Shown one piece after another: positions 6,914 to 30,475 of a stretch of 48,626 nt of DNA. Position numbers and translations under genes: made by a program. Below the pieces are notes generated by a model, which saw only the letters and a program-made list of their open reading frames with translations, ran no database searches and was not told where the DNA came from. The stretch comes from Paenirhodobacter populi (GTDB lineage: Bacteria; Pseudomonadota; Alphaproteobacteria; Rhodobacterales; Rhodobacteraceae), in the NCBI RefSeq assembly GCF_004022215.1, contig NZ_SAUZ01000028.1:1-48626 (forward strand), in the 5' to 3' direction. The number at the start of each line of letters is the position of its first letter. The stretch's first letter is position 1.

Positions 6914-6974
6914 CGTCGTTTTTCCCTAAATATCCCGGGGGAGCCCGGAACGGGCGGGGGCAGCGCCCCCTGCC
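6914..6974 (-). repeat. Two-hairpin CCCGGGATATTT repeat, copy 1
   Basis: Read on the minus strand it has three modules: hairpin A (GGGGGCGCTGCCCCC), hairpin B (GCCCG, loop, CGGGC) and a tail (CCCCCGGGATATTT then AGGGAAAA). Six more copies lie in the window. It sits between the small membrane protein and mfd, and its tail points back to the upstream gene. Confidence 0.85.
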
Positions 6975-7066
6975 ACCCCATCCGCCCGCGCCCCCGGCCC
7001 TGAGTTCCGCACCCCAACCCGCCATCGGGGCTTGACAGCGCGGCCGGGCCGGATACCTCGGAACGC

Positions 7067-10000
7067 ATGGATCACTTTCTTCTTTCCGGCGCCCCCGAGG
7101 GCTATGATGCGAAACTTCTGGGCAAGGAACTGGCGCGCGGGCGTCCGGTGATCCACATCGCCCGCGACGACCGGCGGCTGGAGGCGATGCGCGCCGCGCT
7201 GGCCTTCTTCGCGCCCGAGGCGGTGGTGCTGTCCTTCCCGGCCTGGGACTGCCTGCCCTATGATCGTGTCTCGCCGAACCCCGAGATCGCGGCGACGCGG
7301 ATGGCGACGCTGGCGGCGCTCACGGCGGGTGTGCCGGGGCCGTTCGTGCTGCTGACCACGCTCAACGCCGCGATGCAGAAGGTGCCCGCCCGCGATGTCG
7401 TCGGCGCGTCGAGCTTCACCGCCAAGGTCGGCGGACCGATCCACGAAAAACGCCTGCGCGAGTTTCTGGCGCGGATGGGCTTCTCGCCGGTGTCGACGGT
7501 GGCGGAGCCCGGCGATTATGCGGTGCGTGGCGGCATCATCGACATCTATCCGCCGGGAGAGACGGGGCCGGTGCGGCTCGACCTGTTCGGCGACGTGCTG
7601 GATGGCGCGCGTCGGTTCGACCCGGAAACGCAGCGCACCACCGAAAAGCTGAAACATGTCGAATTCGCACCCGTCAGCGAGGTGATCCTCGACGAACCCT
7701 CGATCACCCGGTTCCGGCAGAATTACCGTATCGAATTCGGCGCGGGCGGGACGGACGATCCCTTGTATGAAGCCGTCTCGGCCGGGCGCAAGCATGCGGG
7801 GATGGAACACTGGCTGGGCTTTTTCCACGAACGGCTGGAAACGTTGTTCGATTATCTGCCCGACGCCTCGGTGATGATCGACGATCAGATCGAGCCGCAG
7901 CGGATTTCCCGCTGGGAAGGGATCGTCGATCAATACGACACGCGGCGCGAGGCGATGCTGCGCAAGGACCGGGTGGATACGGTCTACAAACCCGCGCCGC
8001 CCGGCCTGCTGTATCTGGACGAGGCGGGATGGAAAGCGGCGCTGGCGCCGCATCGGGTGCTGCGGTTGCAGGTCCTGCCAGCCCCCCCGGGCCCGGGTAT
8101 CCTGAATGCCGAAGCCCGCATCGGCCGCAATTTCGCGCCGGAACGACAGCTTGAGAATGTGAGCCTTTTCGGCGCGTTGAGGGATCATATTCAGAAACGA
8201 CTTGAACATGGACCGGTGGTGATCGCCAGCTGGTCCGAAGGCGCGCGCGAACGGTTGAAGGGGTTGCTTGAGGACGAAGGCATGACCTCGCCCCGGACGA
8301 TCCGCGACGCGCGCGAGATCGGCGGGATCGGCCTTGCCATCTGGGCGCTGGACCACGGCTTCGAGGCCGAGGGGCTGACCGTCATTTCCGAACAGGACGT
8401 GCTGGGCGACCGGCTGATTTCGCGACCCAAGAAGAAGCGCAAGGCCGACAACTTCCTGACCGAGGCGCAAAGCCTGACCCCCGGCGATCTGGTGGTCCAT
8501 GTCGATCACGGGGTCGGGCGTTACAAGGGGCTGGAGACGGTCGAGGCGCTTGGCGCGCCGCTCGATTGCGTTTTGTTGGAATATGCGGGCGGCGACCGGC
8601 TGTATCTGCCGGTGACGAACATCGAACTCCTCAGCCGTTACGGGCATGAGGAAGGGCTGCTCGACAAGCTTGGTGGCGGGGCGTGGCAGGCGAAGAAGGC
8701 GAAGCTGAAGGAACGCATCCGCCTGATCGCCGACAAGCTCATGCGGATCGCCGCCGAACGCCATCTGCGCGCCGCGCCGATCCTTGAGGCGCCGCATCAC
8801 GAATGGGAATCCTTCGCCGCCCGCTTCCCCTATACGGAAACCGACGATCAGATGTCGGCGATCGAGGATGTGGTGAACGACCTTGCCTCGGGCACGCCGA
8901 TGGATCGGCTGGTGGTGGGCGACGTGGGGTTCGGCAAGACCGAGGTGGCGATGCGCGCGGCCTTTGTCGCCGCCGTTTCCGGCATGCAGGTGGCGGTGAT
9001 CGCGCCCACCACGCTGCTGGCGCGGCAGCACTACAAGACCTTCGCCGAACGTTTCCGCGGCACGGCGCTGAACGTGCGGCCGCTGTCGCGCTTCGTCTCG
9101 GCCAAGGATGCCGCGAAGACCCGCGAGGGGCTGGCCGACGGCACCGTCGATATCGTCATCGGCACCCATGCGGTGCTGGCGAAGTCGGTGCGGTTCCGCA
9201 ACCTCGGCCTGCTGGTGATCGACGAGGAGCAGCATTTCGGCGTGAACCACAAGGAGCGGCTGAAGGAACTGCGTTCGGAAATCCACGTCCTCACGCTGAC
9301 CGCGACGCCGATTCCGCGCACGCTCCAGCTCAGCCTGACCGGGGTGCGCGACCTGTCGATCATCGGCACGCCGCCCGTCGACCGGCTGGCGATCCGCACC
9401 TATGTCAGCGAATTCGACGCGGTGACGATCCGCGAGGCCTTGCTGCGCGAACGCTATCGCGGTGGGCAGTCCTTCTACGTCGTGCCGCGCATCACCGATC
9501 TGGCCGAGGTGGAGGCGTTCCTCAAAACCCATGTGCCCGAGGTCAGCTATGTCGTCGCCCATGGGCAGATGGCGGCGGGGGAACTCGATGACCGGATGAA
9601 CGCCTTCTACGACGGCAAATACGATGTGCTGCTGGCCACCAGCATCGTCGAGTCGGGGCTGGATATTCCGACTGCCAACACGATGATCATCCATCGCGCC
9701 GATATGTTCGGGCTGAGCCAGCTTTACCAGATCCGGGGGCGCGTGGGCCGGTCCAAGGCGCGGGCCTATTGCTACCTGACGACCAAGCCGCGGATGCCGC
9801 TGACCCCGCAGGCGGTCAAGCGGCTGCGGCTTCTGGGCAGCCTCGACAATCTGGGGGCGGGGTTCAGCCTCGCCTCGCAGGATCTGGACCTGCGCGGCGC
9901 CGGAAACCTGCTGGGGGAGGAACAGTCGGGCCATATCCGCGAGGTCGGCTACGAACTCTATCAGGCGATGCTGGAAGAAACGATCGCCCGGCTGAGGTCC

Positions 10001-10498
10001 GGCGACCTGACCGATCTGGCCGAGGATGGCGAATGGTCGCCGCAGATCAACCTTGGCGTGCCGGTGATGATCCCCGAAAGCTATATCGCCGATCTGGATG
10101 TGCGGCTTGGCCTCTACCGGCGGCTGTCCGGGCTGGTGACGAAGGTCGAGCTGGAAGGCTTCGCGGCCGAGCTGATCGACCGCTTCGGCCCCTTGCCGAA
10201 AGAGGTGAACACCCTGCTGCTGGTGGTGCGGATCAAGGGGATGGCGAAGCGTGCCCATATCGCGCGGCTGGACGCCGGGCCGAAGGGCGCGACGATCCAG
10301 TTCCATCTGGACAAATTCCCGAATCCGGCCGGGCTTGTCGAATTCCTGCAGGCGCAGCGCGGGCAGGCGAAGATCAACGGTAACAAGGTCTTCGTCGCGC
10401 GCGACTGGGGATCCGATGCGGAACGGATCAAGGGCGCCTTCGCCATCGCCCGGGACCTTGCGGAAAAGGTGATCGAGGCGAAGAAGGCGAAGGCCTGA
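7067..10498 (+). CDS. mfd: transcription-repair coupling factor
   Basis: 1143 aa, full length. Mfd removes RNA polymerase stalled at DNA lesions and recruits UvrA. Domain order is clear: an N-terminal UvrB-like part (to about residue 330), the RNA polymerase interaction domain around residue 470 (GDLVVHVDHGVGRYKGL), and the SF2 translocase with Walker A GDVGFGKTEVAMRAAF near residue 620 and DEEQ at about 717. Next come TATPIPRTLQ, IVESGLDIP, QIRGRVGRS and a TRCF C-terminal domain (LGVPVMIPESYI). The ribosome site is weak, but the N-terminus (MDHFLLSGAPEGYDA) fits the family. The opposing transporter gene ends only three bases after its stop. Confidence 0.97.
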   Translation: MDHFLLSGAPEGYDAKLLGKELARGRPVIHIARDDRRLEAMRAALAFFAPEAVVLSFPAWDCLPYDRVSPNPEIAATRMATLAALTAGVPGPFVLLTTLNAAMQKVPARDVVGASSFTAKVGGPIHEKRLREFLARMGFSPVSTVAEPGDYAVRGGIIDIYPPGETGPVRLDLFGDVLDGARRFDPETQRTTEKLKHVEFAPVSEVILDEPSITRFRQNYRIEFGAGGTDDPLYEAVSAGRKHAGMEHWLGFFHERLETLFDYLPDASVMIDDQIEPQRISRWEGIVDQYDTRREAMLRKDRVDTVYKPAPPGLLYLDEAGWKAALAPHRVLRLQVLPAPPGPGILNAEARIGRNFAPERQLENVSLFGALRDHIQKRLEHGPVVIASWSEGARERLKGLLEDEGMTSPRTIRDAREIGGIGLAIWALDHGFEAEGLTVISEQDVLGDRLISRPKKKRKADNFLTEAQSLTPGDLVVHVDHGVGRYKGLETVEALGAPLDCVLLEYAGGDRLYLPVTNIELLSRYGHEEGLLDKLGGGAWQAKKAKLKERIRLIADKLMRIAAERHLRAAPILEAPHHEWESFAARFPYTETDDQMSAIEDVVNDLASGTPMDRLVVGDVGFGKTEVAMRAAFVAAVSGMQVAVIAPTTLLARQHYKTFAERFRGTALNVRPLSRFVSAKDAAKTREGLADGTVDIVIGTHAVLAKSVRFRNLGLLVIDEEQHFGVNHKERLKELRSEIHVLTLTATPIPRTLQLSLTGVRDLSIIGTPPVDRLAIRTYVSEFDAVTIREALLRERYRGGQSFYVVPRITDLAEVEAFLKTHVPEVSYVVAHGQMAAGELDDRMNAFYDGKYDVLLATSIVESGLDIPTANTMIIHRADMFGLSQLYQIRGRVGRSKARAYCYLTTKPRMPLTPQAVKRLRLLGSLDNLGAGFSLASQDLDLRGAGNLLGEEQSGHIREVGYELYQAMLEETIARLRSGDLTDLAEDGEWSPQINLGVPVMIPESYIADLDVRLGLYRRLSGLVTKVELEGFAAELIDRFGPLPKEVNTLLLVVRIKGMAKRAHIARLDAGPKGATIQFHLDKFPNPAGLVEFLQAQRGQAKINGNKVFVARDWGSDAERIKGAFAIARDLAEKVIEAKKAKA

Positions 10499-10501
10499 GG
10501 C

Positions 10502-11725
10502 CTATTCCTCGCCCGGTTGCGTGGTGCGGCCGAGGATCCACCAGGCGATGGTCGAACAGATCAGCGCGGCGACGACCAAAGGCATCGGCGTGCCCCGGAA
10601 CATCAGCCCGACCGGCGCCGCGATCACCACGGCACCAATCGTCGAGATCGCCGCGATGACCGAGGCGGCCATTCCCGCCAGATGCCCCATCTTCTGCATC
10701 GCCATCGCGTTCAGGTTGCCGAAGGTGACCCCGGCCATGAAGAACACCGACACGTTCCACAGGAAGATCAGCCAGAACCAGCCCGGCCCGACGATATGGC
10801 CAAGCAGCAGCAGCGCCAGCATCCCGGCCGAGACGACCATCTGCATCAGATAGGCGGCGCGCGAAATCCGGTGCATGCCGAGCCGCATCACGAAGCGCGC
10901 GTTGAACGCCGAGGCGGAGCCCGCGAGGATCGCTCCGAAGCCGAACCAGTAGGGGAAGGTGTCCGTCACCCCGAAGGCCGCGAACAGCTGCGGCGCCGAG
11001 GACAGCAGCGCGAACATCTGCCCGAAGCCGAGCGCGATCACCAGCGTGTAGAGCACCACATCGCGGTTCGACAGGACCTCGCGCGCGCCGGCCAGAAGCT
11101 GCGCCGGGATCAGCGGGCGGCGGCGGGCGTCGGGCAGGGTCTCGGGCTGGCGCAGGCCCATCCAGCTGACCAGCACGATGCCGAACACCACGAAGGCGCC
11201 GAACACCCCGCGCCAGCCGAATTGCAGCGCCAGCAGGCCGCCGATCGTCGGCGCGATGGCCGGGATCAGGATGAAGAACATCATCACGAAGGAGGTGATC
11301 TTGGCCATGTCCGACCCCGCATACAGATCGCGGATCAGCGCCATGGAAACGATTCGCCCGGCCGAGGCGCCGATGCCCTGAATGAAACGGGCAAGGAGCA
11401 GCATCTCGAGGCTCTTCGACCAGACCGCCAGCAGCGCGCCCACGACATAGATCGCCAAGCCCCCGGCCAGCGTCGACTTGCGCCCGATCGCGTCCGAGAC
11501 GGGACCGGCGAAGAAGGTACCGAGCCCCATCCCCATCATGAAAATGGTCAGCACGAGCTGCGCGCGGTTCACGTCCTGCGGCGAGAGTTCCCGCGCGATC
11601 ACGGGCAGCGAGGGCAGCATCGCGTCGATGGAAAAGGCGACGAGCGCCATCATGAAAGCCAGAAGCGCCACGAATTCGGGAAGCGGCAGGCGCTTGGCCT
11701 CCGGCGGGTAGGTCGGTGGTGTCAC
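10502..11725 (-). CDS. Bcr/CflA-like major facilitator efflux transporter
   Basis: 407 aa with twelve hydrophobic segments, the standard 12-helix MFS drug:proton antiporter fold in the inner membrane. The motif GPVSDAIGRKSTL between helices 2 and 3 is MFS motif A. SIDAMLPSLPVIA at helix 1 and RFIQGIGASAGRIVSMALIRDLY (in pieces) at helices 4-5 match the Bcr/CflA group (bicyclomycin and sulfathiazole resistance, or dipeptide export). Substrate cannot be told from sequence. The start at 11725 is the first methionine with a plausible cytosolic tail. The gene converges on mfd. Confidence 0.88.
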   Translation of the reverse strand: MTPPTYPPEAKRLPLPEFVALLAFMMALVAFSIDAMLPSLPVIARELSPQDVNRAQLVLTIFMMGMGLGTFFAGPVSDAIGRKSTLAGGLAIYVVGALLAVWSKSLEMLLLARFIQGIGASAGRIVSMALIRDLYAGSDMAKITSFVMMFFILIPAIAPTIGGLLALQFGWRGVFGAFVVFGIVLVSWMGLRQPETLPDARRRPLIPAQLLAGAREVLSNRDVVLYTLVIALGFGQMFALLSSAPQLFAAFGVTDTFPYWFGFGAILAGSASAFNARFVMRLGMHRISRAAYLMQMVVSAGMLALLLLGHIVGPGWFWLIFLWNVSVFFMAGVTFGNLNAMAMQKMGHLAGMAASVIAAISTIGAVVIAAPVGLMFRGTPMPLVVAALICSTIAWWILGRTTQPGEE

Positions 11726-11865
11726 GGGGATACAGCCTTCAGAGTTTCGGCGCGAACATATAGCTCCGGCGGCAAAATACCAGCGCCCTTAGCGGGCTTT
11801 GGCACACAGGGGGATGTTCACCGTTGCGAAGGATGCCGGGCCGGGGCGGTATCGGCGGGGGCGAA

Positions 11866-11933
11866 GGGGGGCGCTGCCCCCTCTTTGCGCTGGCGCGCAA
11901 ATTCACCCCCGGGATATTTATGGAAAGATGATG
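11866..11933 (+). repeat. Two-hairpin CCCGGGATATTT repeat, copy 2
   Basis: Hairpin A is GGGGGCGCTGCCCCC. Hairpin B is TTTGCGC/GCGCAAA-like (TTGCGC, tggc loop, GCGCAA). The tail is CACCCCCGGGATATTTATGG then AAAGATGATG. It lies in the 600-base gap between the MFS gene start and the FrnE-like gene end. Confidence 0.88.
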
Positions 11934-11939
11934 GGAGAA

Positions 11940-12260
11940 GCAGTGTCTTGGGAGGGGTGTTCGGAACGCCGACGGGGCCGGGTCAGGGGGCGGGTGTGAT
12001 GTCCGGTGGGCGCATGGGGGCGCCGCCGGTCCCCGCACCGCGCTGGCCGCGGTCTATATTCGCCGGCTTCTGCCGCAGGCGGGTGCCAGCCTTGCCGAGG
12101 CGCGCGAGGGCGCCGCGGAACTTTATGCCCTGACGGACGGGGAAACCGGATGTGCCGGTGTTCAGACCGGACAAGATCGACCCGTCGGCTGGCGGCGGCG
12201 CGGTCCGCAGCCATACTGCGGTGCTTGTCCCGGGGCGGATGCGGCGGGTGTCGCGGGATG
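11940..12260 (+). other. Gap region with possible coding remnant
   Basis: Between the repeat and the hairpin at 12266 there is no complete gene. One plus-strand frame from about 12030 to 12175 reads like genuine protein (RTALAAVYIRRLLPQAG, then SLAEAREGAAELYALTDGE) but has no start and then loses its protein-like look. I could not match it to a family. It may be the remains of a deleted gene or a chance open frame in high-GC DNA. Confidence 0.25.
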
Positions 12261-12265
12261 TGGGA

Positions 12266-12294
12266 GGCGCTTTTCCCGCATTGGGAAAAGCGCC
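12266..12294 (-). terminator. Perfect 12-bp inverted repeat downstream of the FrnE-like gene
   Basis: GGCGCTTTTCCC pairs perfectly with GGGAAAAGCGCC around a 5-base loop, 34 bases after the FrnE-like stop in the minus direction. The U-rich part lies within the stem rather than after it. Best explanation is a terminator or 3'-end stabiliser. Confidence 0.6.
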
Positions 12295-12328
12295 GTGGCG
12301 ATGGGATGCGGGAAAGGATTCCGCGCGT

Positions 12329-12988
12329 TCAGTGCGTTGTCGGGGGCGGGGTTTGTGCCTGTGCTTGTGCCTGCGCCAGATCGTCGATCACCTGGAGCCA
12401 GAAATCCGTCGTCTGCGCGCCTTCGACCACATATTGGTTGCCGATGATGAAGGTCGGCACCGCCTTCAACCCGCGCGCGCGGGCATGGGCTTCGCGCTCG
12501 GCCACCGTGTCGCGGTCGGCGTCGGAGGCCAGAAGCCGCGCGACCAGCGCCCGGTCCATCCCCTGCGAGGCGCCGATATCGGCCAGAACCTCATGGTCTC
12601 CGATGTCGCGGCCTTCGCGCCAATAGGCGCGCAGCAGTGCCGAGACGACGGGGGTCTGCCGCCCCTCCAGCCCCGCCCAGTGGATCAGCCGGTGGGCGTC
12701 GAGCGTGTTCGGCATCCGCCGGATCGCGGCGAGGTCGAGCGTCAGCCCGGCGTCCCGCGCCGCCTCGATGACCGGGGCGTGGATGCGGTCGGCCTCGGCG
12801 CCGAAGCGGGCCTGCAGGAAGGCCTGCCGATCCATGCCCTCGGGTGGCAGGGTCGGGTTGAGCTGGAACGGATGCCAGGCGAGGACGAAGGGATGGCCGG
12901 GGCGCGCCTCAAGCGCGCGGTCGAGCCGCGCCTTGCCGATCAGGCACCAGGGACAGACGGGATCGGCGAAGATGTCGAGGGGTATCAT
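12329..12988 (-). CDS. DsbA-family oxidoreductase, FrnE-like
   Basis: 219 aa. The thioredoxin-like fold is marked by the redox pair Cys12-Pro-Trp-Cys15 near the N-terminus, the helical insert typical of FrnE/2-hydroxychromene isomerase-like DsbA proteins (WHPFQLNPTLPPEGMDR), and the cis-Pro loop in KAVPTFIIGNQYVVEGAQ. No signal peptide, so it acts in the cytoplasm; FrnE relatives are linked to disulfide handling and oxidative stress. The start has a GGAGGTTCCC ribosome site. The C-terminus ends in an Ala-Gln repeat (AQAQAQAQ) encoded by a short tandem repeat. It lies 14 bases after the AMP-binding-like gene, so the two are probably one transcript. Confidence 0.9.
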   Translation of the reverse strand: MIPLDIFADPVCPWCLIGKARLDRALEARPGHPFVLAWHPFQLNPTLPPEGMDRQAFLQARFGAEADRIHAPVIEAARDAGLTLDLAAIRRMPNTLDAHRLIHWAGLEGRQTPVVSALLRAYWREGRDIGDHEVLADIGASQGMDRALVARLLASDADRDTVAEREAHARARGLKAVPTFIIGNQYVVEGAQTTDFWLQVIDDLAQAQAQAQTPPPTTH

Positions 12989-13002
12989 GGGAACCTCCGG
13001 GG

Positions 13003-16570: not shown

Positions 16571-17356
16571 ATGAGTTTCTCGATCAATCTGGCCGGCAAG
16601 GTGGCGGTCGTCACCGGGTCCAATTCGGGCATCGGCCTTGGCATCGCGCGCGAACTGGCGAAGGCGGGGGCGGATGTCGTCCTCAATTCCTTCACCGACC
16701 GCGACGAGGATCACCGGCTGGCCGAGGATCTGGGCCGCGAAACCGGCGTGTCGGCGCGCTATATCAAGGCCGACATGTCGAAAGGCGCGGAATGCCGGGC
16801 GCTGATCGAACAGGCGGGCCGGGTGGATATTCTGGTGAACAACGCCGGCATCCAGCATGTCGCGGCGATCGACGAATTTCCGGTCGACAAATGGGATGCG
16901 ATCATCGCGATCAACCTGTCGTCGGCCTTTCACACCACGGCGGCGGCGCTGCCCGGCATGCGGGCGGCGGGATGGGGGCGGATCATCAACATCGCCTCGG
17001 CGCATGGGCTGACCGCCTCGCCGTTCAAATCGGCCTATGTGGCGGCGAAACACGGGATCGTCGGCTTCACCAAGGTGACCGCGCTGGAAACCGCGGAACA
17101 GCCGATCACCTGCAACGCCATCTGCCCGGGCTATGTGCTGACGCCGCTGGTCGAGGCGCAGATCCCCGATCAGATGAAGACGCACAACATGGGCCGCGAG
17201 GACGTGATCCGCAAGGTCATGCTGGAACGCCAGCCCTCGCGCGAATTCGCCACGGTCGAGGAACTGGGCGGCACGGCGGTGTTCCTGTGCTCGGACGCGG
17301 CGGCGCAGATCACCGGGACGACGATTTCGGTGGACGGAGGCTGGACGGCGCTCTGA
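16571..17356 (+). CDS. bdhA: D-3-hydroxybutyrate dehydrogenase
   Basis: 261 aa short-chain dehydrogenase. It oxidises 3-hydroxybutyrate to acetoacetate with NAD in polyhydroxybutyrate and ketone-body use. The NAD motif TGSNSGIG, NNAG, the catalytic Ser in INIASAHG and the SAYVAAKHG Tyr/Lys pair are all present. HGLTASPFKSAYVAAKHG, CNAICPGYVLTPLVEAQI and the C-terminal ITGTTISVDGGWTAL match the 3-hydroxybutyrate group well. The start at 16571 follows GGAAGACAGA. The patatin gene lies downstream on the same strand, separated by an inverted pair of structured repeats. Confidence 0.93.
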   Translation: MSFSINLAGKVAVVTGSNSGIGLGIARELAKAGADVVLNSFTDRDEDHRLAEDLGRETGVSARYIKADMSKGAECRALIEQAGRVDILVNNAGIQHVAAIDEFPVDKWDAIIAINLSSAFHTTAAALPGMRAAGWGRIINIASAHGLTASPFKSAYVAAKHGIVGFTKVTALETAEQPITCNAICPGYVLTPLVEAQIPDQMKTHNMGREDVIRKVMLERQPSREFATVEELGGTAVFLCSDAAAQITGTTISVDGGWTAL

Positions 17357-17369: not shown

Positions 17370-17432
17370 GGGGGCGCTGCCCCCTCGGCCGCGGGCGCGG
17401 CCTCACCCCCGGGATATTTGAGGAAAGATGAA
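17370..17432 (+). repeat. Two-hairpin CCCGGGATATTT repeat, copy 3
   Basis: Hairpin A is GGGGGCGCTGCCCCC. Hairpin B is GGCCGCG/CGCGGCC. The tail is CACCCCCGGGATATTTGAGG then AAAGATGAA. It begins 14 bases after the bdhA stop and faces copy 4 tail to tail. Confidence 0.88.
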
Positions 17433-17446
17433 GATCCCTTTCTGCT

Positions 17447-17510
17447 TTCATTCTTCCATAAATATCCCGGGGTGAATTGGCCGCAAGGCCAAGAGGGGCA
17501 GCGCCCCTGC
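17447..17510 (-). repeat. Two-hairpin CCCGGGATATTT repeat, copy 4 (inverted)
   Basis: On the minus strand: hairpin A GGGGCGCTGCCCC, hairpin B TTGGCC/GGCCAA, tail CACCCCGGGATATTTATGG then AAGAATGAA. With copy 3 it forms a near-palindromic 140-base unit between bdhA and the patatin gene. Confidence 0.88.
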
Positions 17511-17538: not shown

Positions 17539-18588
17539 ATGCGCAGGAAACGGATCAATCTGGCCCTTCAGGGCGGCGGGGCGCATGGCGCCTTCACCTG
17601 GGGCGTGCTGGAGCGGCTGCTGGACGAGGACTGGCTTGAGATCGCGGCGATTTCCGGCACATCGGCCGGGGCGCTGAACGGCGCGGCGCTGAAGGCGGGG
17701 CTGGTGCGGGGCGGCGCGAAGGACGGGCGGCGTCTCGCGCGCGAGAACCTCGGCTGGCTCTGGTCGCAGGTCGAGGAGATCAACGACCTTCAGATCGGCC
17801 GCTGGGTCGCGGCGCTGTTTCCCTTCCCCGACCGGATCAACCGCTGGATCGAGATGTTCACCCCCGCCGCCTGGGTCGATCAGGTGACGCGGGTGGTGTC
17901 GCCCTACGATTCCGGGCCGTTCTACGTGAATCCCCTCGCGCGGATCGTCGAGCGGTTCGAGTATGATCACGTCTGTTCGGCGCGCGGGCCGGCGTTCTTC
18001 GTCGCCGCGACCAATGTGCGAACCGGCAAGGTGCGGGTGTTTTCCGGCAAGGAGATCAACTCGGACGCCATCCTCGCCTCGGCCTGTCTGCCGAACCTGT
18101 TCCGCGCGGTGGAGATTTTCGACGAACAGACCGGCAAGGTGGAGGCCTTCTGGGATGGCGGGTTCAGCGGCAACCCGCCGCTGTTTCCGCTCTACCGCGA
18201 GGATTTCCCGCGCGACATCGTCATCGTCACCATCAATCCGATGCTGAACGACCATGTGCCGCAATCGCCGGTGGGCATCGCCGAGCGGATCAACGAGATC
18301 TCGTTCAACGCCTCGCTCTTGCGGGAATTGCGGGCGATCCAGTTCGTGCGCCGGCTGCTGGCGGACAAGCGCCTGCCCGAGGGGACGATGAAGGACGTGC
18401 TGATCCACATGGTCTCGGATGACGAGATCATGAACGAGATGGCGGCGAATTCGAAGATGACGCCAAGCGTCGGCACGCTCGGCCGGCTCAGGACGGCGGG
18501 GCAGGCGGCGGCCGACCGCTTCCTGAGCGAGCATGGCGCGAATATCGGCGAGCGCGCCTCGATCGACCTCGGCGCGCTCTTTCAGTAG
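17539..18588 (+). CDS. patatin-like phospholipase
   Basis: 349 aa. It has the patatin oxyanion motif GGGAHGAF near residue 13, the nucleophile serine in GTSAG (residues about 41-45) and the catalytic aspartate in WDGGFSGNP. These enzymes hydrolyse acyl chains of membrane lipids. No signal peptide, so it is cytosolic or on the inner face. An identical arrangement, 3-hydroxybutyrate dehydrogenase followed by patatin, is familiar from Rhodobacteraceae, and a link to PHB granule or fatty-acid turnover is an inference. The start is preceded by GGGAGGGACGGAG. It ends directly against the opposing psuG stop with no spacer. Confidence 0.9.
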   Translation: MRRKRINLALQGGGAHGAFTWGVLERLLDEDWLEIAAISGTSAGALNGAALKAGLVRGGAKDGRRLARENLGWLWSQVEEINDLQIGRWVAALFPFPDRINRWIEMFTPAAWVDQVTRVVSPYDSGPFYVNPLARIVERFEYDHVCSARGPAFFVAATNVRTGKVRVFSGKEINSDAILASACLPNLFRAVEIFDEQTGKVEAFWDGGFSGNPPLFPLYREDFPRDIVIVTINPMLNDHVPQSPVGIAERINEISFNASLLRELRAIQFVRRLLADKRLPEGTMKDVLIHMVSDDEIMNEMAANSKMTPSVGTLGRLRTAGQAAADRFLSEHGANIGERASIDLGALFQ

Positions 18589-20625: not shown

Positions 20626-21381
20626 ATGGCGCTTCCCGAATTCTCGATGCGTCAGCTTCTTGAAGCTGGCGTTCACTACGGCCACCAGACGCAACGCTGG
20701 AACCCGCGCATGGCGGAGTTCATCTATGGCGAGCGCAACGGCATCCATATCATCGACCTGACCCAGACCGTGCCGATGCTGGACGCGGCGCTGCAGGTCG
20801 TGCGCGACACCGTGGCCCGTGGCGGCCGCGTGCTGTTCGTCGGCACCAAGCGTCAGGCCTCGAAGGCCGTGGCCGAAGCCGCTGAAAAGTCGGCGCAATA
20901 CTACATGAACCACCGCTGGCTCGGCGGCACGCTGACCAACTGGAAGACCGTGTCGCAGTCGATCGCCCGGCTGAAGAACATCGACGAGGTGCTCGCCTCG
21001 GGCGCCGAGGGCCTGACCAAGAAGGAACGGCTCCACATGGAACGCGAACAGGCGAAGCTGCAGGCCTCGCTCGGCGGGATCCGTGAAATGGGCGGCCTGC
21101 CGGACCTGCTGTTCGTCATCGACGTCAACAAGGAAGACCTCGCCATCCTCGAAGCGCAGAAGCTGGGCATCCCGGTCGTGGCCGTGGTCGATACCAACTG
21201 CTCGCCCAAGGGCGTGGACTACATCATCCCCGGCAACGACGACGCGGCGCGGGCGATCTCGCTCTACTGCGATCTGGCCAGCCGTGCGGCGCTGGACGGC
21301 ATGACCGCGCAGATGGGCGCGGCGGGCGTCGATCTTGGCGCTCTGGAAGAGACCCCGGTCGAAGAAGCCGTCGAGGCCTGA
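20626..21381 (+). CDS. rpsB: 30S ribosomal protein S2
   Basis: 251 aa, the usual length. S2 sits at the head-body junction of the small subunit and is needed to recruit S1. The N-terminal [41 protein letters not shown] (in pieces), [14 protein letters not shown], and [12 protein letters not shown] are diagnostic. The start follows AAAAGGATTGGAAC. It is followed by tsf on the same strand, the near-universal rpsB-tsf order. Confidence 0.98.
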
Positions 21382-21394
21382 GGCTTCGACCTGC

Positions 21395-22538: not shown

Positions 22539-22594
22539 GGGGCGCTGCCCCTCGGCGCAAGCGCCTCACCCCGGGATATTTGTGGAAAGATGAA
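22539..22594 (+). repeat. Two-hairpin CCCGGGATATTT repeat, copy 5
   Basis: Hairpin A GGGGCGCTGCCCC, hairpin B GGCGC/GCGCC with a two-base AA loop, tail CACCCCGGGATATTTGTGG then AAAGATGAATG. It lies 84 bases beyond the tsf terminator. Confidence 0.87.
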
Positions 22595-22599
22595 TGGGA

Positions 22600-23639: not shown

Positions 23640-23660
23640 TTCTTCTCCATGGGAGAGACA

Positions 23661-23684: not shown

Positions 23685-23867
23685 CCCGGGCGGGGCATCC
23701 GGCATTCCCGCGGAAATCGGCACGGGCTGTCCGGGTGCAGCCGGAATGCCGTGGGTGAAATTGATCCTCGGCAATCCGGGTGCAAATGAGAGTCATTGCA
23801 AAATTCCCGCCTCCGGCGGGCGGAGACGGGAGCGCATAAGATAGAAGTCCTGATTCCTATAACGAAA

Positions 23868-24296
23868 TCAGCGCGTTGTTGCAAGACTTTCGAGCAGCGC
23901 GACAAGACCGGAATGATCGTAGCCCGCCCGGGCCGCCAGTTCGACGATCTCGGGAACCGGCCGCGTTTCGGCCTGGCTCAGCGCCCACAGATGCGAGGAG
24001 CGCGTTCCCGACCGGCAATAGGCCAGCACCGGCTTTTCCGCGGCGGCATAGGCGGCGTTGAAGGCCTCCGAAAGCTCGGCGGTCAGTTCGCCCGGGGTGT
24101 AGGGCAGGTAATGGAAGGCAAGGCCCGCCTCCTCCGCCGCGCGGGCCATGACGGTGCTGTCGAGGTCGGAGCCCGCCTCGCCGTCCGGCCGGTTGTCGAT
24201 CAGGGTGCGGAAGCCCATTTTCGCCGCGAGCGCGACATCTTCGGGGGTGATCTGCGGGGTGACGGAAAGCTCCGAGGTGATCTGGCGCACGTCCAT
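23868..24296 (-). CDS. TIGR01244-type phosphatase/sulfurtransferase domain protein
   Basis: 142 aa. It starts MDVRQITSELSVTPQITPED and carries GFRTLIDNRPDGE, FHYLPYTPGEL and the active-site loop AYCRSGTRSSH, the pattern of the small cysteine-phosphatase-like family TIGR01244 (also the N-terminal part of Blh proteins). The Cys-x4-Arg loop supports phosphatase or rhodanese-like chemistry, but the substrate is unknown; relatives in other bacteria sit near sulfide and biofilm genes. The start at 24296 was chosen because the domain begins there. It follows gph on the same strand after 74 bases and may share its transcript. Confidence 0.82.
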   Translation of the reverse strand: MDVRQITSELSVTPQITPEDVALAAKMGFRTLIDNRPDGEAGSDLDSTVMARAAEEAGLAFHYLPYTPGELTAELSEAFNAAYAAAEKPVLAYCRSGTRSSHLWALSQAETRPVPEIVELAARAGYDHSGLVALLESLATTR

Positions 24297-24370
24297 GGGT
24301 TTCTCCTGCGGTCCGGTGGGTGTGTTTCGACGCGGCAGGATGATCCTTCCGCGGCATATGTGCAAGGCGC

Positions 24371-25039
24371 TCAGCGCGCGTCCCACGGCCAGCCGGCGAC
24401 GATGCCGGGCAGGACCGCGAAATCGGAAAAGGCCCGCGCATGCGGCAGGGTCTCGACCGGCGTCTTGCGATAGCCTTCGGTGAACAGCACGAAGGGCAGG
24501 GCGGCGCGCTGCGCGGTTTCGGCATCCACCTCGCTGTCGCCGATATAGAGCGCGGGACCGCCGCCCAGATCGGCCAGCGCCTGCCGCAGCGGCGCGGGAT
24601 CCGGCTTGCGCGTGGGCAGGCTGTCGCCGCCGATGACGGTATCGAACAGCGGCGTCAGCCCGAAATTGCCGAGCGTCGAACGCGCGGGACCCATCGGCTT
24701 GTTGGTGCAGATCGCCAGCGGATGGCCCGCCGCGCGGAGCGTTTCCAGCGCCGCATGCACGCCGGGAAAGGGCACGGTCAGGGTCACCGCCTCTTCATAG
24801 ATGCGATTGAAATCGGGGATCATCCGCTCTGCCAGCCCGTCTTTAGGATCCGCGCCCGAGGCCTTTATCAGGCAATCCACCAGATGCGGCACGCCGTGGC
24901 CGATGAAGCTGCGCACCTGGTCGAAGCTCAGCGGCGCATATCCGTATTGTTCCAGAACGGCGTTCGAGACGGCATGGATGTCCGGGGCGGAATCCAGCAG
25001 CGTGCCGTCCAGGTCGAAGATCAGGGCTGCGGGCTGCAT
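24371..25039 (-). CDS. gph: phosphoglycolate phosphatase
   Basis: 222 aa HAD-superfamily enzyme. It dephosphorylates 2-phosphoglycolate made by RuBisCO oxygenation or DNA repair. HAD motif I is FDLDGTLLDS with Asp9 and Asp11, motif II is in AICTNKP, motif III includes the Lys of RKPDP, motif IV is YIGDSEVD. A small helical cap follows motif I (FIGHGVPHLVDCLIKASG). The start at 25039 has AAGGAGTTTCCG upstream. It lies in a gph-rpe-fbp neighbourhood on one strand, the same set found as cbbZ-cbbE-cbbF in autotrophs, though no RuBisCO gene is here. Confidence 0.88.
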   Translation of the reverse strand: MQPAALIFDLDGTLLDSAPDIHAVSNAVLEQYGYAPLSFDQVRSFIGHGVPHLVDCLIKASGADPKDGLAERMIPDFNRIYEEAVTLTVPFPGVHAALETLRAAGHPLAICTNKPMGPARSTLGNFGLTPLFDTVIGGDSLPTRKPDPAPLRQALADLGGGPALYIGDSEVDAETAQRAALPFVLFTEGYRKTPVETLPHARAFSDFAVLPGIVAGWPWDAR

Positions 25040-25153
25040 CGGAAACTCCTTTTCATGCCTCGGATTTTGCCGGCACAGTAGTGAAGGGGGCTGGAATGGC
25101 AAGTGGCCCCGTGGCGCGGAATGGGGAATGGGCGCGCGGCTGGATGGGGGGCT

Positions 25154-25215
25154 AGGGGGCCAGCCCCCTCGCGCGTTCCGCGCTCACCCCCGGGATATTT
25201 ATGGAAACACGAAAA
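25154..25215 (+). repeat. Two-hairpin CCCGGGATATTT repeat, copy 6 (subtype II)
   Basis: Hairpin A is AGGGGGCCAGCCCCCT, hairpin B is GCGCG/CGCGC, tail CACCCCCGGGATATTTATGG then AAACACGAAAAGGGG. It lies between rpe and gph. The A module and the CACGAA tail differ from copies 1-5 and match copy 7. Confidence 0.88.
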
Positions 25216-25251
25216 GGGGATGGAACGTTCAGAGGGGGCGGCGATCCGGGG

Positions 25252-25941
25252 TCAAAGGGCGGCTTCCGCCGCAGTGCGGATCGCGCGGATATTTTCGCCG
25301 TAGGGCGCGGGATCGGCGACCGAGCCGCCCTTGAACACCGCCGAGCCCGCGACCAGCACATCCGCCCCGGCGGCGGTCATCAGCGGCGCGGTTTCGGGGG
25401 TGATGCCGCCGTCGATCTCGATATGGATCGGGCGGTCGCCGATCATGTCGCGCAGCTGTTTCACCTTGCCGATCTGCGAATGGATGAATTTCTGTCCGCC
25501 GAAGCCGGGGTTCACCGTCATCACGCAGACGAGGTCCACCAGATCGAGCAGATAGTCGATCCCGTCGAGCCCGGTGCCCGGATTGATCGCCAGCCCGGCC
25601 TTGCAGCCCGCGGCGCGGATCGCCTGAAGCGTGCGGTGGATATGCGGCCCCGCCTCGGGATGGACCGAGATGATGTCGGCCCCGGCGGCGGCGAAGGCCT
25701 CGATATAGGGATCGACCGGGGCGATCATCAGATGGACGTCCATGACCGTGGTGATATGCGGCCGGATCGCCTTCACCACCGGCGGGCCGAAGGTCAGGTT
25801 CGGCACGAAATGCCCGTCCATCACATCGACATGGACCCAGTCGGCGCCCTGCGCCTCGATCGCGCGGATTTCCTGGCCAAGGTCGGCGAAATCGGCGGAA
25901 AGGATGGATGGCGCGATCTTGATCGAGCGGTCGAAGGTCAT
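25252..25941 (-). CDS. rpe: ribulose-phosphate 3-epimerase
   Basis: 229 aa TIM-barrel enzyme interconverting ribulose 5-phosphate and xylulose 5-phosphate in the pentose phosphate and Calvin pathways. Conserved parts are IAPSILSADFADLG, WVHVDVMDGHFVPN with metal-binding His and Asp, DVHLMI, MTVNPGFGGQKF and IEIDGGI. A ribosome site GGAGCCCGCC lies upstream of the start. fbp lies 72 bases upstream on the same strand, so fbp-rpe are probably co-transcribed; a repeat element separates rpe from gph. Confidence 0.96.
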   Translation of the reverse strand: MTFDRSIKIAPSILSADFADLGQEIRAIEAQGADWVHVDVMDGHFVPNLTFGPPVVKAIRPHITTVMDVHLMIAPVDPYIEAFAAAGADIISVHPEAGPHIHRTLQAIRAAGCKAGLAINPGTGLDGIDYLLDLVDLVCVMTVNPGFGGQKFIHSQIGKVKQLRDMIGDRPIHIEIDGGITPETAPLMTAAGADVLVAGSAVFKGGSVADPAPYGENIRAIRTAAEAAL

Positions 25942-26013
25942 GGCGGGCTCCTGTCTGGCGCGGCGGATATGGCGGCGGGAGGCCCGGCAGTCAAGCCGCC
26001 CGCCGCCGGGCTG

Positions 26014-26994
26014 TCAGAGCTGGTCGTCCGCTGCCTGCGCAGCGCGCGCGGGATCGGTGAAGTAGAGCGCCACGCGCTTCACCTCGGCCACCGGACCGAA
26101 GACGAGCGGCGTGCGTTCGTGCAGCTTCGTCGGCACCTCGTCGAGGATCGGGTTCACCCCATCCGTCGCGGCGCCGCCCGCCTGTTCGATCAGCATCGCG
26201 ATCGGCGCGCATTCGTAGAGGTGGCGCAGGCGGCCGCGCGCATAGCCCTCGCGGCCGTCGCCGGGATAGAGGAACACGCCGCCGCGATGCAGGATCCGGT
26301 AGGTTTCCGCAACCAGCGAGGCGACCCAGCGGGCATTGTAGTTCTTGCCGCGCGGACCGGTCTCGCCTGCCAGAAGATCGTCGATATAGGCCTTGACCGG
26401 CGCCGGCCAGTGCCGCGCGTTCGAGGCGTTGATGGCGAATTCCGCCTTGCCCGCGGGGATCTTGCCCAGATCGGCCAGACGCTCGAAGCGGCCGGTATCG
26501 GGGTCGAACACCCATTTGTGCACGCCGTCGCCGAAGGAGGCGATCAGCGCGAGCTGCGGCCCGTAGATAATGAAACCGCCGGCGATCTGTTCGCGGCCCT
26601 TGCGCAGGAAGCTCGCCTCCGGGGTCGCCGCGGCGGGGAAGACGGAAAAGATCGTGCCGATGGTCACGTTCACGTCGATGTTCGACGATCCGTCCAGCGG
26701 GTCGATCGCCAGCGCCAGATTGCCGCCGTCGAAGGTGATGTAGTCGTCATCCTCTTCGGATGCGTAATAGAGCACCGCCGAATCCTTCAGTGCATCCTTG
26801 AACGCCTCGTCCGCGATCACGTCGAGCGCCTTTTGTCCGTCGCCGCCGGCGTTCACCCCCTGGGCCGCCGAAAGATCTTCGGTGATTCCGTTGCGGGCGA
26901 TGATGCGTTGCAGCGTGGTCGCCGTGTCGGTCAGCCTTTGCATCAGATCGGCCAGCTCGGGCGAAAGCGTCAATCCGTCGAGATCAAGTGACAT
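26014..26994 (-). CDS. fbp: class 1 fructose-1,6-bisphosphatase
   Basis: 326 aa. It hydrolyses fructose 1,6-bisphosphate in gluconeogenesis and the Calvin cycle. Metal and substrate motifs are [32 protein letters not shown] and, near the C-terminus, [20 protein letters not shown]. The start at 26994 was chosen for the perfect GGAGG ribosome site seven bases upstream. In Rhodobacteraceae this type occurs both as housekeeping Fbp and as CbbF; the neighbouring rpe and gph suit either. Confidence 0.95.
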
Positions 26995-27213
26995 TCCTAC
27001 CTCCGTCACGCGCCCCGCAGGGCCTTTCGGGTTGATTGCGCGATTCCCCGCGTTGTGGCAATGGAAAACGAACCGGCGGGCAGCAGGGTTGCGGTCCGGC
27101 GGGCGTTTCCGGCCCGATTCCGCCGCGCGGGCGACATGCGACGGAAACGCGGCGGCGCGGCGTAAAATCGCCTATACGCACAGGATGCGACAGGCAGAGA
27201 GACCGGGGAAGAG

Positions 27214-28404
27214 ATGATGAAACGGAAAACCGCAGCCCTGATCGGGGCGGTGGTCCTGGCGGCCCTCGGCTATTGGGGTTGGCAGACCTACGGCAGGTCC
27301 GACCGGACCGCGGCGCCGGCGACGGTGTCCGTTGCCCGCGGCTCTGTGTCGCAGACCGTTCTGGCCACCGGGCAGGTGGAGGCCAAGCAGCTTGTCAGCG
27401 TCGGCGGCCGGGTTTCGGGGCAGATCGAGACGCTGGCGGTCGTGCTCGGGCAGGATGTGAAGAAAGACGACCTGATCGTGCAGATCGATTCGAACGACCA
27501 GGAAAACGCCGTCGCGCAGGCCCGGGCCAATCTGGCGAATATCGCCGCGCAGATTTCCGCGACCACCGCCAATCTGTCGAAGGCGGAACTGGAATACGCC
27601 CGCCAGCAAAAGCTCGCCCGGTCGGATTACAGCTCGCAGCAGACGCTGGAAACCGCCGCCGCCGATGTCGAGGTCTACAAGGCCAATATCGCGGCGCTCG
27701 AGGCGCAGAAATCCAGCGCCGAGATCAATGTGAAAACCGCGCAGACCGCGCTGAGCCGCACCACGATCGTGGCGCCGATTTCCGGCACGGTGGTGGCGGT
27801 GAACGTGCAGCAGGGCCAGACGGTGAACGCCACGCAAAGCGCGCCGACGATGGTCAAGCTGGCCGATCTGGACACCGTCGTCATCAAGGCCGAGATTTCC
27901 GAGGCCGATGTGGTCAGCCTCCGCCCCGGCCAGCATGCGAGCTTCACCATCCTCGGCGCGCCGAACCGGCGTTTCTCCACCACCGTGCGCGAGGTGGAAC
28001 CCGCGCCCTCGGCGCTGAAGGACAGCGACACGATCTCGACCGACAGCGCGATCTATTACAATGCCATCCTCGAACTGCCGAATGAGGATCGCACCCTCCG
28101 GATCGGCATGACCACGCAGGTGACGATCACGCTGGCCGAGGCGAAGGACGTGCTGACCGTTCCCGCGGGCGCGCTGCGCCGCAAGGGGCGGGACTATTTC
28201 GTCACCGTCGTCGGGCCGATGGGCGGGTTGACCGAGCAGCAGGTCGAGGTCGGCCTGAACAACAAGGTCACCGCCGAGATCAAGGCCGGCCTGACCGAGG
28301 GGCAGCAGGTCGTCTCCGCCGGGCAGGGCGCGATGGGGCTGGGACCGGGCGCCGGACAGGCGGGATCGGCAAGCCGCCGCATCGGCCCGCCGATGGGGTT
28401 CTGA
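27214..28404 (+). CDS. macA: MacA-like periplasmic adaptor of an ABC efflux pump
   Basis: 396 aa. One N-terminal membrane anchor (TAALIGAVVLAALGYWGW) is followed by a lipoyl half (VSVGGRVSGQIETLAVVLGQ), a coiled-coil hairpin (about residues 90-185, rich in Ala, Gln, Lys), the second lipoyl half (TIVAPISGTVVAVNVQQGQT) and beta-barrel domains. This is the membrane-fusion protein architecture of MacA. It would join the MacB ATPase to an outer-membrane TolC. Its stop lies one base before the macB start. The ribosome site GGGGAAGAG precedes it; 27214 and 27217 are both ATG. Confidence 0.88.
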   Translation: MMKRKTAALIGAVVLAALGYWGWQTYGRSDRTAAPATVSVARGSVSQTVLATGQVEAKQLVSVGGRVSGQIETLAVVLGQDVKKDDLIVQIDSNDQENAVAQARANLANIAAQISATTANLSKAELEYARQQKLARSDYSSQQTLETAAADVEVYKANIAALEAQKSSAEINVKTAQTALSRTTIVAPISGTVVAVNVQQGQTVNATQSAPTMVKLADLDTVVIKAEISEADVVSLRPGQHASFTILGAPNRRFSTTVREVEPAPSALKDSDTISTDSAIYYNAILELPNEDRTLRIGMTTQVTITLAEAKDVLTVPAGALRRKGRDYFVTVVGPMGGLTEQQVEVGLNNKVTAEIKAGLTEGQQVVSAGQGAMGLGPGAGQAGSASRRIGPPMGF

Positions 28405-28405
28405 C

Positions 28406-30370
28406 ATGACCGGGCCCGACACGACCCAACCGCTGATCTCCATCCGCGACGTCACCCGCAGCTTTCAGGCGGGGGAGGAAACGATCACCGTCCTGCATGG
28501 CGTGTCGCTCGACATCCGCGCGGGCGAGATGGTGGCGATCATCGGCCAGTCGGGCTCGGGCAAATCGACGCTGATGAACATCCTCGGCTGTCTCGACCGG
28601 CCGACCTCGGGCACCTACCGCTTTGCCGGGCGCGACGTCGAGGCGCTGGACCCCGATCAGCTGGCCCAGCTCCGGCGCGAACATTTCGGCTTCATCTTCC
28701 AGCGCTATCAGTTGCTGGGCGATCTCGACGCGGTGGAAAACGTCGAGGTGCCGGCGGTCTATGCGGGCGAGGCCGGCCGGGCGCGGCGTCTGCGCGCCGA
28801 GGAGCTGCTGCAACAGCTTGGCCTTGGCGAAAGGCTGGACCACCGGCCGAGCGAGCTTTCCGGCGGTCAGCAGCAGCGCGTTTCCGTGGCCCGTGCGCTG
28901 ATGAACGGCGGCGAGGTAATCCTGGCGGACGAACCGACCGGCGCGCTTGATACCAAAAGCGGCGAGGACCTGATCGCGCTGCTGCTGGAACTGAACCGGC
29001 AGGGCCATACGATCATCGTCGTCACCCATGACCCGAAGGTCGCGGCCCATGCCCGCCGGGTGATCGAGATCCGCGACGGCGCCATCCTGTCGGACAAGAG
29101 CACCGGCCCCGCCGAACCCGCCCCCGTGGCCTCGGCCACCCCGCGCCGCCGGGCGACGCTGTCGGGCGCCGCCGCGGGGATCCGCCGCTTCACCGAGGCC
29201 TTCCATTCCGCGACCAAGGCGATGCTGGCGCACCGGCTGCGCAGCTTCCTGACGATGCTCGGGATCATCATCGGTATCGCCTCGGTCGTGCTGGTGGTGG
29301 CGCTTGGCAACGGCACGCAGCAGAAGGTGCTGGACAATATCTCGTCGCTCGGGACCAACACGATCACCGTGCGGGCGGGGTCGGGCTTCGGGCGGCGGGA
29401 CGCGAACCGGATCCAGACGCTGGTCCCCTCGGATGCCGAAGCGATCGCGGCGCAGGATTATGCCGTCGGCGCCTCGCCCGCGGTAAGCACGTCGAAGACC
29501 GTGGTCTCCGCCTCGAACAGCGCCAGCGTGTCGATCAACGGTGTCAGCGGCGATTATTTCGGCGTCCACAACTACGCCACGGTCTACGGCAGCACCTTTG
29601 ACGAAACGGATGTCGAGGGGCTGGCGCAGGTCGCCGTGCTGGACGAGGATACGCTGTCCACCTTCTTCCCAAGCGGCAATGCCATCGGGCAGGTGCTGAT
29701 GATCGGACAGGTGCCGGTGCGGGTGATCGGCGTGGTGCGGTCGAGCGGCGCGACCTTCGGGCCGTCCTCGCTGAACCTCTGGGTGCCCTATACCACCGCC
29801 ATGTCGCGCATCACCGGCCAGACCTACCTGAGCAGCATCGGCGTGCGCGTGGCCGACGACCACGACATGACCGAGGCGCAGGAGCGCATCACCGAACTGC
29901 TGACCCTGCGCCACGGCACGCAGGATTTCTGGTTGCAGAACAGCGACACGATCCGCTCGACCATCACCTCGACGACGCAGACGATGACCTGGCTGGTGGC
30001 GGCGATCGCGCTGATCTCGCTGGTCGTCGGCGGGATCGGGGTGATGAACATCATGCTGGTGTCGGTGACCGAGCGCACGCGCGAGATCGGCGTGCGGGTG
30101 GCTGTCGGCGCACGGCGCAGCGACATCGTCAGCCAGTTCCTGATCGAGGCGGTGCTGGTCTGCCTTGTCGGCGGTGTGCTGGGCATTCTCACGGCGGTCG
30201 GGGCGGGGGCGCTGATCTCCTCGCTGTCGGCGGATACGCGGCTGGCCTTTTCGCCGCTGGCGATCGCGCTGGCGTTCTTTTCCTCGACGCTGATCGGGAT
30301 CACTTTCGGTTTCCTGCCGGCGCGGTCGGCGGCGAAGCTCGACCCGGTGGTGGCGCTGAACCGGGAGTGA
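28406..30370 (+). CDS. macB: MacB-like ABC transporter, fused ATPase and permease
   Basis: 654 aa. The N-terminal ATPase has Walker A GQSGSGKST, signature LSGGQQQRV and Walker B ILADEPTGALD. The permease half starts with a transmembrane helix (about residues 275-300: LTMLGIIIGIASVVLVVAL), then a large periplasmic MacB-type domain, and three C-terminal helices (AIALISLVVGGIGVMNIML, VCLVGGVLGILTAVGAGAL and ALAFFSSTLIGITFGFLPA). This is the full MacB plan, a mechanotransmitting efflux pump for macrolides, peptides or toxins. The substrate is unknown. It is translated directly after macA. Confidence 0.93.
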   Translation: MTGPDTTQPLISIRDVTRSFQAGEETITVLHGVSLDIRAGEMVAIIGQSGSGKSTLMNILGCLDRPTSGTYRFAGRDVEALDPDQLAQLRREHFGFIFQRYQLLGDLDAVENVEVPAVYAGEAGRARRLRAEELLQQLGLGERLDHRPSELSGGQQQRVSVARALMNGGEVILADEPTGALDTKSGEDLIALLLELNRQGHTIIVVTHDPKVAAHARRVIEIRDGAILSDKSTGPAEPAPVASATPRRRATLSGAAAGIRRFTEAFHSATKAMLAHRLRSFLTMLGIIIGIASVVLVVALGNGTQQKVLDNISSLGTNTITVRAGSGFGRRDANRIQTLVPSDAEAIAAQDYAVGASPAVSTSKTVVSASNSASVSINGVSGDYFGVHNYATVYGSTFDETDVEGLAQVAVLDEDTLSTFFPSGNAIGQVLMIGQVPVRVIGVVRSSGATFGPSSLNLWVPYTTAMSRITGQTYLSSIGVRVADDHDMTEAQERITELLTLRHGTQDFWLQNSDTIRSTITSTTQTMTWLVAAIALISLVVGGIGVMNIMLVSVTERTREIGVRVAVGARRSDIVSQFLIEAVLVCLVGGVLGILTAVGAGALISSLSADTRLAFSPLAIALAFFSSTLIGITFGFLPARSAAKLDPVVALNRE

Positions 30371-30407
30371 CCTCGGGTTCAGGGTTGGGTCCATGCGGAG
30401 AGGGCGC

Positions 30408-30475
30408 AGGGGGCCAGCCCCCTCTTTGCGCTGACGCGCAAATTCACCCCCGGGATATTTATGGAAACACGAAGA
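30408..30475 (+). repeat. Two-hairpin CCCGGGATATTT repeat, copy 7 (subtype II)
   Basis: Hairpin A AGGGGGCCAGCCCCCT, hairpin B TTTGCGC/GCGCAAA with a TGAC loop, tail CACCCCCGGGATATTTATGG then AAACACGAAGAGGGG. It lies between macB and eutB. Confidence 0.88.

Follow-up and report, generated by a model that had tools for sequence, protein, structure and literature searches.

Among the described systems, the closest are the REP and REPIN sequences. In the excerpted portions of three accounts (PMC3733652, PMC3116915, PMC6006769), these consist of many intergenic palindromes that occur as singlets and as inverted doublets and fall into several sequence types, and REPs tend to be located near 3' ends, where the neighbouring genes are convergent or co-directional. 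Here, we examine a dispersed element of Paenirhodobacter populi (family Rhodobacteraceae), which was noticed by a sequence-only reading of a 48,626-nucleotide contig (NZ_SAUZ01000028.1; this whole stretch is referred to as the window).

The element is probably a palindromic DNA repeat, dispersed in genomes of the Rhodobacteraceae and working in the manner of the REP/REPIN class. Like REP/REPIN/BIME sequences (RAYT, TnpA-REP), it forms high-copy intergenic palindromes, both as singlets and as inverted hairpin doublets, and its placement near 3' ends, at convergent and co-directional junctions, resembles that given for REPs in the excerpts of PMC3733652. Unlike REP/REPIN, the repeat unit is 56-68 nt long, with two hairpins and a conserved tail, mostly lacks a GTAG/GTGG or CGTC tag, and belongs to a genus in which a Y1 transposase occurs in 0/18 genomes. 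Because the tag and the Y1 gene were looked for with these outcomes, we describe the repeat as working like REPINs and do not file it as a RAYT-associated REP. Of the roles offered by the sequence-only reading (termination, mRNA decay or a mobile REP-like unit), the REP-like unit is the best supported, given the hundreds of intergenic copies, the inverted doublets, the presence and absence of units at given junctions and a REP-like gene context.

RIME, Bru-RS and the Caulobacter intergenic repeats are palindromic intergenic repeats of other Alphaproteobacteria, and the likeness to them is one of description and not of sequence. ERIC is an intergenic MITE-like repeat of ~127 bp. The enterobacterial small mobile repeat units (RU) are likewise intergenic and MITE-like, with ~127-bp repeats. 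ERIC and RU are set apart from the present element by their descriptions: the host group is another, while here we observe modular halves and genome-wide dialects. We found no earlier description of the repeat in the open-licence literature, where most subscription papers are missing, and a search of that literature by core letters gave nothing related at the level of titles.

Anatomy of the repeat in the window

All seven copies described by the sequence-only reading were found at their positions and on their strands, with the B stems it had given (Table 1), and the CCCCGGGATATTT core has exactly seven perfect matches within the window. Each half-element is built from hairpin A, which is rich in GC, hairpin B, which is exchangeable, the core CCCC-G-R-R-R-TATTT and a purine-rich tail; roughly TCACCCCCGGG comes after hairpin B, and ATATTT after that. 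Copies 3 and 4 are the two halves of one composite. The same reading had assigned a shared tail with one of two endings to all copies, a description that fails for copy 1, which carries TCCCCCGGGATATTTAGGG+AAAAACGAC, and for copy 4, which ends in AAGAATGAA; we distinguish at least four tail types (AAACACGAA, AAGAATGAA, AAAGATGAA and AAAAACGAC). Its two subtypes, in which the type of hairpin A was tied to the type of tail, dissolve over 70 copies (no association, chi-square p 0.63; p 0.44 for the reading's own two-by-two division of A type and tail type). Finally, copy 4 contradicts the statement that no copy lies close to a start codon, as it ends 28 nt ahead of the called start at 17539.

Table 1. 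Half-elements and the composite in the window; flanking genes are those of a purpose-built caller, not of an annotation
Feature	Position	Strand	Core	Parts and neighbours
Copy 1, half-element	6914..6974	-	6928-6940	hairpin A, hairpin B, core, tail; + strand gene ending at 6880 / mfd starting at 7067
Copy 2, half-element	11866..11933	+	11907-11919	start of Bcr/CflA-type MFS gene (10502-11725, -) / end of - strand gene at 12329
Copy 3, left half of composite	17370..17432	+	17407-17419	composite flanked by 3-hydroxybutyrate dehydrogenase gene (bdh, called 16571-17356, +) / patatin-like gene (17539-18588, +)
Copy 4, right half of the composite shared with copy 3	17447..17510	-	17460-17472	as for copy 3
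Central hairpin of copies 3 and 4	17405..17474	no strand		facing tails, 25/28 positions paired
Copy 5, half-element	22539..22594	+	22569-22581	convergent junction 22390/22860
Copy 6, half-element	25154..25215	+	25188-25200	antisense between two - strand genes
Copy 7, half-element	30408..30475	+	30448-30460	MacB-type transporter gene ending at 30370 / eutB starting at 30628

When the window was compared with Rfam at the gathering score, no family covered any of the copies, and an FMN riboswitch and a tRNA were the only matches to reach that score. The riboswitch aptamer lies at 44853-44993 on the + strand (117 bits), with the next called gene starting at 45026, and a tRNA-Gln (ctg) lies at 33300-33373 on the - strand. 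Loose Rfam thresholds applied to four loci gave sub-threshold matches that look like chance and were set aside, and tail-encoded mini-ORFs (ATGGAAAGATGA) were dropped as candidates since the frame is not kept by all tail types.

Of 70 copies of the P. populi genome, 63 could be parsed into hairpins A and B, with hairpin A reading AGGGGGCCAGCCCCCT in 35 of the 63. At other sites, the core and tail are unchanged but stand behind a different, single long hairpin (L037 7528, L042 5936 and L044 8245 are examples), and in the genome G099 they are preceded by a GTCGTCCATTGG-type hairpin. The tail, which occurs behind unrelated hairpins, is thus a module joined to exchangeable ones. We also observe in the P. 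populi genome a second upstream module, a single long hairpin around TTCCA-TGGAA to which this core and tail are likewise attached (L042 5936, L037 7528, L043 3025 and L040 5136).

Covariation in hairpin B and in the composites

The observation that stem B keeps its pairing while its letters change is borne out by the 33 distinct B hairpins found among the 63 parsed copies. Their own-partner arms match at 4.91 of 6 positions, whereas arms swapped between hairpins match at 2.71 (sd 0.20), a difference for which 0/2000 shuffles reach the own-partner value. The conclusion drawn from it by the sequence-only reading stands in part: the covariation is real, while selection on RNA is not required to produce it. 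Templated repair is another way in which the arms of a palindrome can be matched. The commonest B hairpins recur identically (in 9, 7, 6 and 4 copies), and since the B hairpins thus fall into discrete identical classes and repair of this kind can match arms, covariation need not mean RNA selection. If the REP/REPIN-like reading is right, the repeat serves as a warning that covariation alone is no proof of a functional RNA. With respect to fold stability, the seven window copies are not unusual for their composition (z of -0.91 to +0.79); the larger set of 70 copies averages a z of -1.16, with 16/70 below -2.

Composites consist of two half-elements placed tail to tail, such that the tails pair into a long central hairpin. 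In an alignment of 44 such sequences, 88.1% of central-stem cells are paired compared to 81.3% after shuffling, and the covariation score is 0.202 versus 0.096, with 0/500 shuffles as high for either the pairing or the covariation score; controls in which the stem was slid are 34-55% paired. Facing composites number seven in 448.6 kb of the P. populi genome (G000) and 28 in 440 kb of the genome G161, densities that are biased upwards because the stretches of G000, G099 and G171 were picked mostly for core matches and those of G161 partly for composites, a choice that affects context and orientation less. In P. populi, 61/75 intergenic cores lie outside the seven facing pairs.

Arm by arm, the 28 composites of G161 fit their own partners at 10.46 of 12 positions versus 8.85 when partners are swapped (0/2000), and nine composites from other same-genus genomes do so at 9.0 versus 7.06 (7/2000). 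The seven composites of P. populi fit their own partners no better than swapped ones (9.0 versus 8.94; 991/2000), so the arm-by-arm evidence comes from relatives, and we count this equal fit against the REP/REPIN-like reading. On one contig of another genome (G062:C1, L272-L281), we observe composites of two different halves, one GAGG-type and one GGGATATTT-type. These have an extra small palindrome like ATTTGAGTCAAAT at the tip, and along the contig their asymmetric pairing appears to turn over.

Distribution, placement and turnover

The seven copies of the window are a small sample of a much larger population, as the CCCGGGATATTT core occurs 354 times (184 forward, 170 reverse) in the P. populi genome (4.78 Mb searched, in 91 contigs), where base composition predicts about 0.3 and the reversed control gives 0. 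Exact cores are present in all 18 of the same-genus genomes (19 to 354 each), in 10/19 genomes of other genera of the family (2 to 72 each) and, outside the family, in 6/24 genomes with 1-5 copies each. The core letters vary by genus (GGGATATTT, GGAGTATTT, GAGGTATTT). A covariance-model search, which the sequence-only reading had proposed as a check, was carried out with a model (R1) built from the 44 composites. It finds composites in 57/120 sampled family genomes, whereas in a class-wide sample the single match among 115 genomes is P. populi itself. The window composite, itself one of the sequences in the training set, is also among the matches (G000:C20:17405-17474, on both strands). The search scored about the best 40 candidates per genome under strict filters and counts palindromes on both strands, so that its per-genome figures are not copy numbers. 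If the REP/REPIN-like reading is right, about half of the sampled family genomes (57/120, by the composite model) carry an unannotated repeat, in up to several hundred copies.

The statement that all copies lie between genes extends to the larger sample: in 448.6 kb of the P. populi genome, 0/70 exact-core copies are inside called genes, and a looser core pattern gives 1/76. Among junctions of at least 70 bp, an element is found in 30/41 convergent, 29/105 co-directional and 4/75 divergent junctions of P. populi, in 17/31, 16/116 and 4/59, respectively, of G161 (where the step from co-directional to divergent is not significant, p 0.21), and in 7/20, 12/105 and 0/56 of G099. In 345.7 kb from other same-genus genomes, the corresponding counts are 11/50 convergent, 5/200 co-directional and 8/46 divergent. 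Divergent junctions are thus not avoided in this last set, in which the stretches share syntenic junctions and nine of the genomes share a unit upstream of rpsB.

We compared orthologous junctions using one genome per species. The unit of copy 1 is absent in 6/6 relatives where the same junction was found, and no unit like copy 5 is present in 9/9 relatives with its junction, two of which give a chance-like pattern match of another sequence. Likewise, no unit was found in 10/10 relatives for copy 2 or in 6/6 for copy 6, for both of which the neighbours are perhaps not strictly orthologous, and for copy 7 no orthologous junction was found in the relatives. Conversely, mfd and the MFS gene, which in P. 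populi are only 3 nt apart, are separated by a composite in G156, and upstream of rpsB (window gene 20626-21381) at least a half is present in 9/10 relatives, with two recognisable halves in seven of these nine, and none in P. populi.

The composite between bdh and the patatin-like gene has the same build with other letters in G161, G156, G149 and G160, and is decayed in G152; in G115 and G024, a single half and the tip of its central hairpin persist at this junction. A unit also lies between these genes in Ruegeria sp. R14_0 and R. haliotis, and not in R. denitrificans. Across 55 bdh loci examined (of 80 retrieved), a forward core lies within 210 nt of the stop in 12, and bdh and patatin nearly abut in a number of the other loci. 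Long-held sites such as this one and the one upstream of rpsB, where at least a half is kept in most relatives, would also fit a stable function, a point against the REP/REPIN-like reading. At the bdh junction, the letters of Sedimentimonas flavescens (L071) and Rhodobacter sp. TJ_12 (L073) are the same as those of the same-genus genomes G154 and G163. At this junction, L072, labelled 'MAG: Sphingomonadales bacterium isolate AU13.004', agrees in its letters with the same-genus genome G160 (L055), and its taxon label looks wrong.

The closely related G158 and G159 (93% identical) differ upstream of rpsB in that the left half has been replaced wholesale and the right half kept, and at two other places G159 has a full unit where G158 has only the outer hairpins or a half. 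Over two species pairs that are 93-94% identical, 39 loci were tried and 26 were comparable, the other 13 being left out because of a flank not found, strand or distance. Of the comparable loci, 13 are the same, 2 differ and 11 lack a core in the other species. On visual inspection, several of these 11 are single-letter changes of a persisting unit or matches within genes that are due to chance, and over both pairs we count just three structural changes that are clear. This outcome is counted against the REP/REPIN-like reading, as is the fact that no movement of a unit between strains was observed and no duplicated target site came to light. At one stretch of G159 (78187), G158 is without most of the composite, and the leftover outer hairpin is followed by TTTTT and resembles a canonical terminator, which is one way in which a repeat might turn into a terminator.

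Tail dialects are genome-specific, as tails are more alike within a genome (likeness of 0.76 and 0.73) than between species at one junction (0.63 and 0.58 at two junctions). Such dialects could be produced in three ways: by new copies overwriting old units, by gene conversion, or by units tracking a recognising factor. If the REP/REPIN-like reading is right, the family is a natural test case for the maintenance of a single dialect by the dispersed repeats of a genome.

Possible terminator-like use, mobilization and the replication fork

Of the rival explanations, the one that fares best, although we consider it unlikely, is that the element is a non-canonical terminator or 3'-end protector whose tandem GC hairpins end or shield mRNAs. 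In its more specific form, RNase E would cut the AU-rich core RUAUUU just behind the hairpins and leave a stable 3' end, an idea by analogy that combines the AU-rich core with the AU-rich sites preferred by R. sphaeroides RNase E in the excerpts of PMC6238624. At the convergent junctions of P. populi, a canonical terminator is rarer where an element is present (7/28 versus 8/11 without, p 0.010; 5/28 versus 8/11, p 0.002, at a stricter threshold). The pool of eight genomes gives an odds ratio of 0.50 (p 0.034) or 0.43 (p 0.012) depending on the threshold, and an earlier form of the test pointed in the same direction in P. populi, G161 and G099. These tests, like the strand-bias test below, leave out stretches reading N (at least one of the twelve G158 stretches). 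Moreover, at 16/22 single-element convergent junctions the hairpin side is nearer the gene read in the same direction (p 0.053).

Against this rival, orientation at single-element co-directional junctions is only loosely sense (14 sense, 8 antisense, p 0.29), which would tell against an RNA signal bound strictly to one strand. G171 shows the opposite relation to terminators (4/6 with an element versus 5/28 without), and in it orientation follows replication and not the genes (6 sense and 11 antisense to flanking co-directional genes, as called by a caller trained on 163 genes). The signature of an intrinsic (Rho-independent) terminator, a GC hairpin directly followed by a U-tract, was not found, and among the P. 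populi copies listed there is no U-tract behind hairpin A or B. Such an element also goes unmentioned in the excerpts on RNase E and PNPase of R. sphaeroides, and at bdh and patatin the units separate genes that nearly abut in other species. Termination, one of the roles suggested from the window, thus survives as a possible terminator-like side role, supported in P. populi and weakly in the pool of eight genomes, and we read 3'-end use as a secondary use of the repeat and not the reason for its existence.

Under the REP/REPIN-like reading, new copies would arise by the copying of hairpin-forming DNA, either as a single strand or through recombination, which would need a putative factor, not a Y1 transposase, that reads the core and tail. 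Such copies would be retained at the sites where they are least harmful or of some benefit, which are those behind stop codons or separating convergent genes, and there the hairpins may also terminate transcripts or shield them. The linked gene for a REP transposase-like protein, proposed as something to look for, did not materialize: Pfam Y1_Tnp (PF01797) is found in 0/18 same-genus genomes, P. populi included, and its 15 occurrences among 149 family genomes do not include the element-bearing G000, G165, G171, G177 and G099. Within 8 nt of hairpin A, the REP tags GTAG/GTGG occur in 2/63 copies and CGTC in 3/63, while GGAG occurs in 9/63. No mobilising gene was identified in these searches, which we count against the REP/REPIN-like reading; if that reading is nevertheless right, REPIN-like populations can persist without RAYT.

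A relation to the replication fork is seen in G171, where the G-rich strand carries 24/26 elements, independently of the direction of the genes (p 1e-5). At its co-directional junctions, 15/17 elements are on this strand, compared to 59% of the coding, and in a separate count 25 single elements are with the leading strand and 2 against. The G-rich strand is taken to be the leading strand and hence has the letters of the lagging-strand template. In single-strand transposition, insertion into and excision from the lagging-strand template are known (excerpts of PMC6006769). The bias is absent in P. populi (29:32), G161 (9:5) and G099 (10:12), the test leaving out stretches in which one of the strands has too little coding. 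We therefore rejected a replication-strand rule that would hold in every genome; the absence in these three genomes is counted against the REP/REPIN-like reading, and the link to the fork is a lead from one genome. On one G171 contig (G171:C3, L252-L271), we observe a very strong GC skew and long runs of one element orientation. It is conceivable, though doubtful, that the repeat constitutes a RAYT-less REPIN-like class that spreads and homogenises itself, in which a Rhodobacteraceae-wide factor recognises the core and tail, units are copied preferentially from one fork strand, genome-specific tail dialects are driven at conserved positions, and hosts reuse units in place of canonical terminators.

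Two further rivals fare less well. That the element is a MITE of a DDE-type insertion sequence or of another transposon in the family would agree with the inverted architecture of the composites and with gain and loss as a unit, but it is improbable, as the outer ends are hairpins and not simple terminal repeats, single halves outnumber composites in P. populi, and no duplicated target was noticed in the aligned junctions (no systematic search). KOPS and Chi are polar DNA signals, and a fork-oriented signal of this kind for replication or segregation, to which the strand counts and long same-orientation runs of G171 would correspond, is very improbable given the lack of bias in P. populi, G161 and G099, the few copies in G171 (32 core matches) and the composites, which hold both orientations at one place. 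In a scan of viral contigs for exact CACCCCCGGGATATTT, a single contig matched (L211, 11793-11808, - strand), at 116 nt from the contig end and perhaps in host flank.
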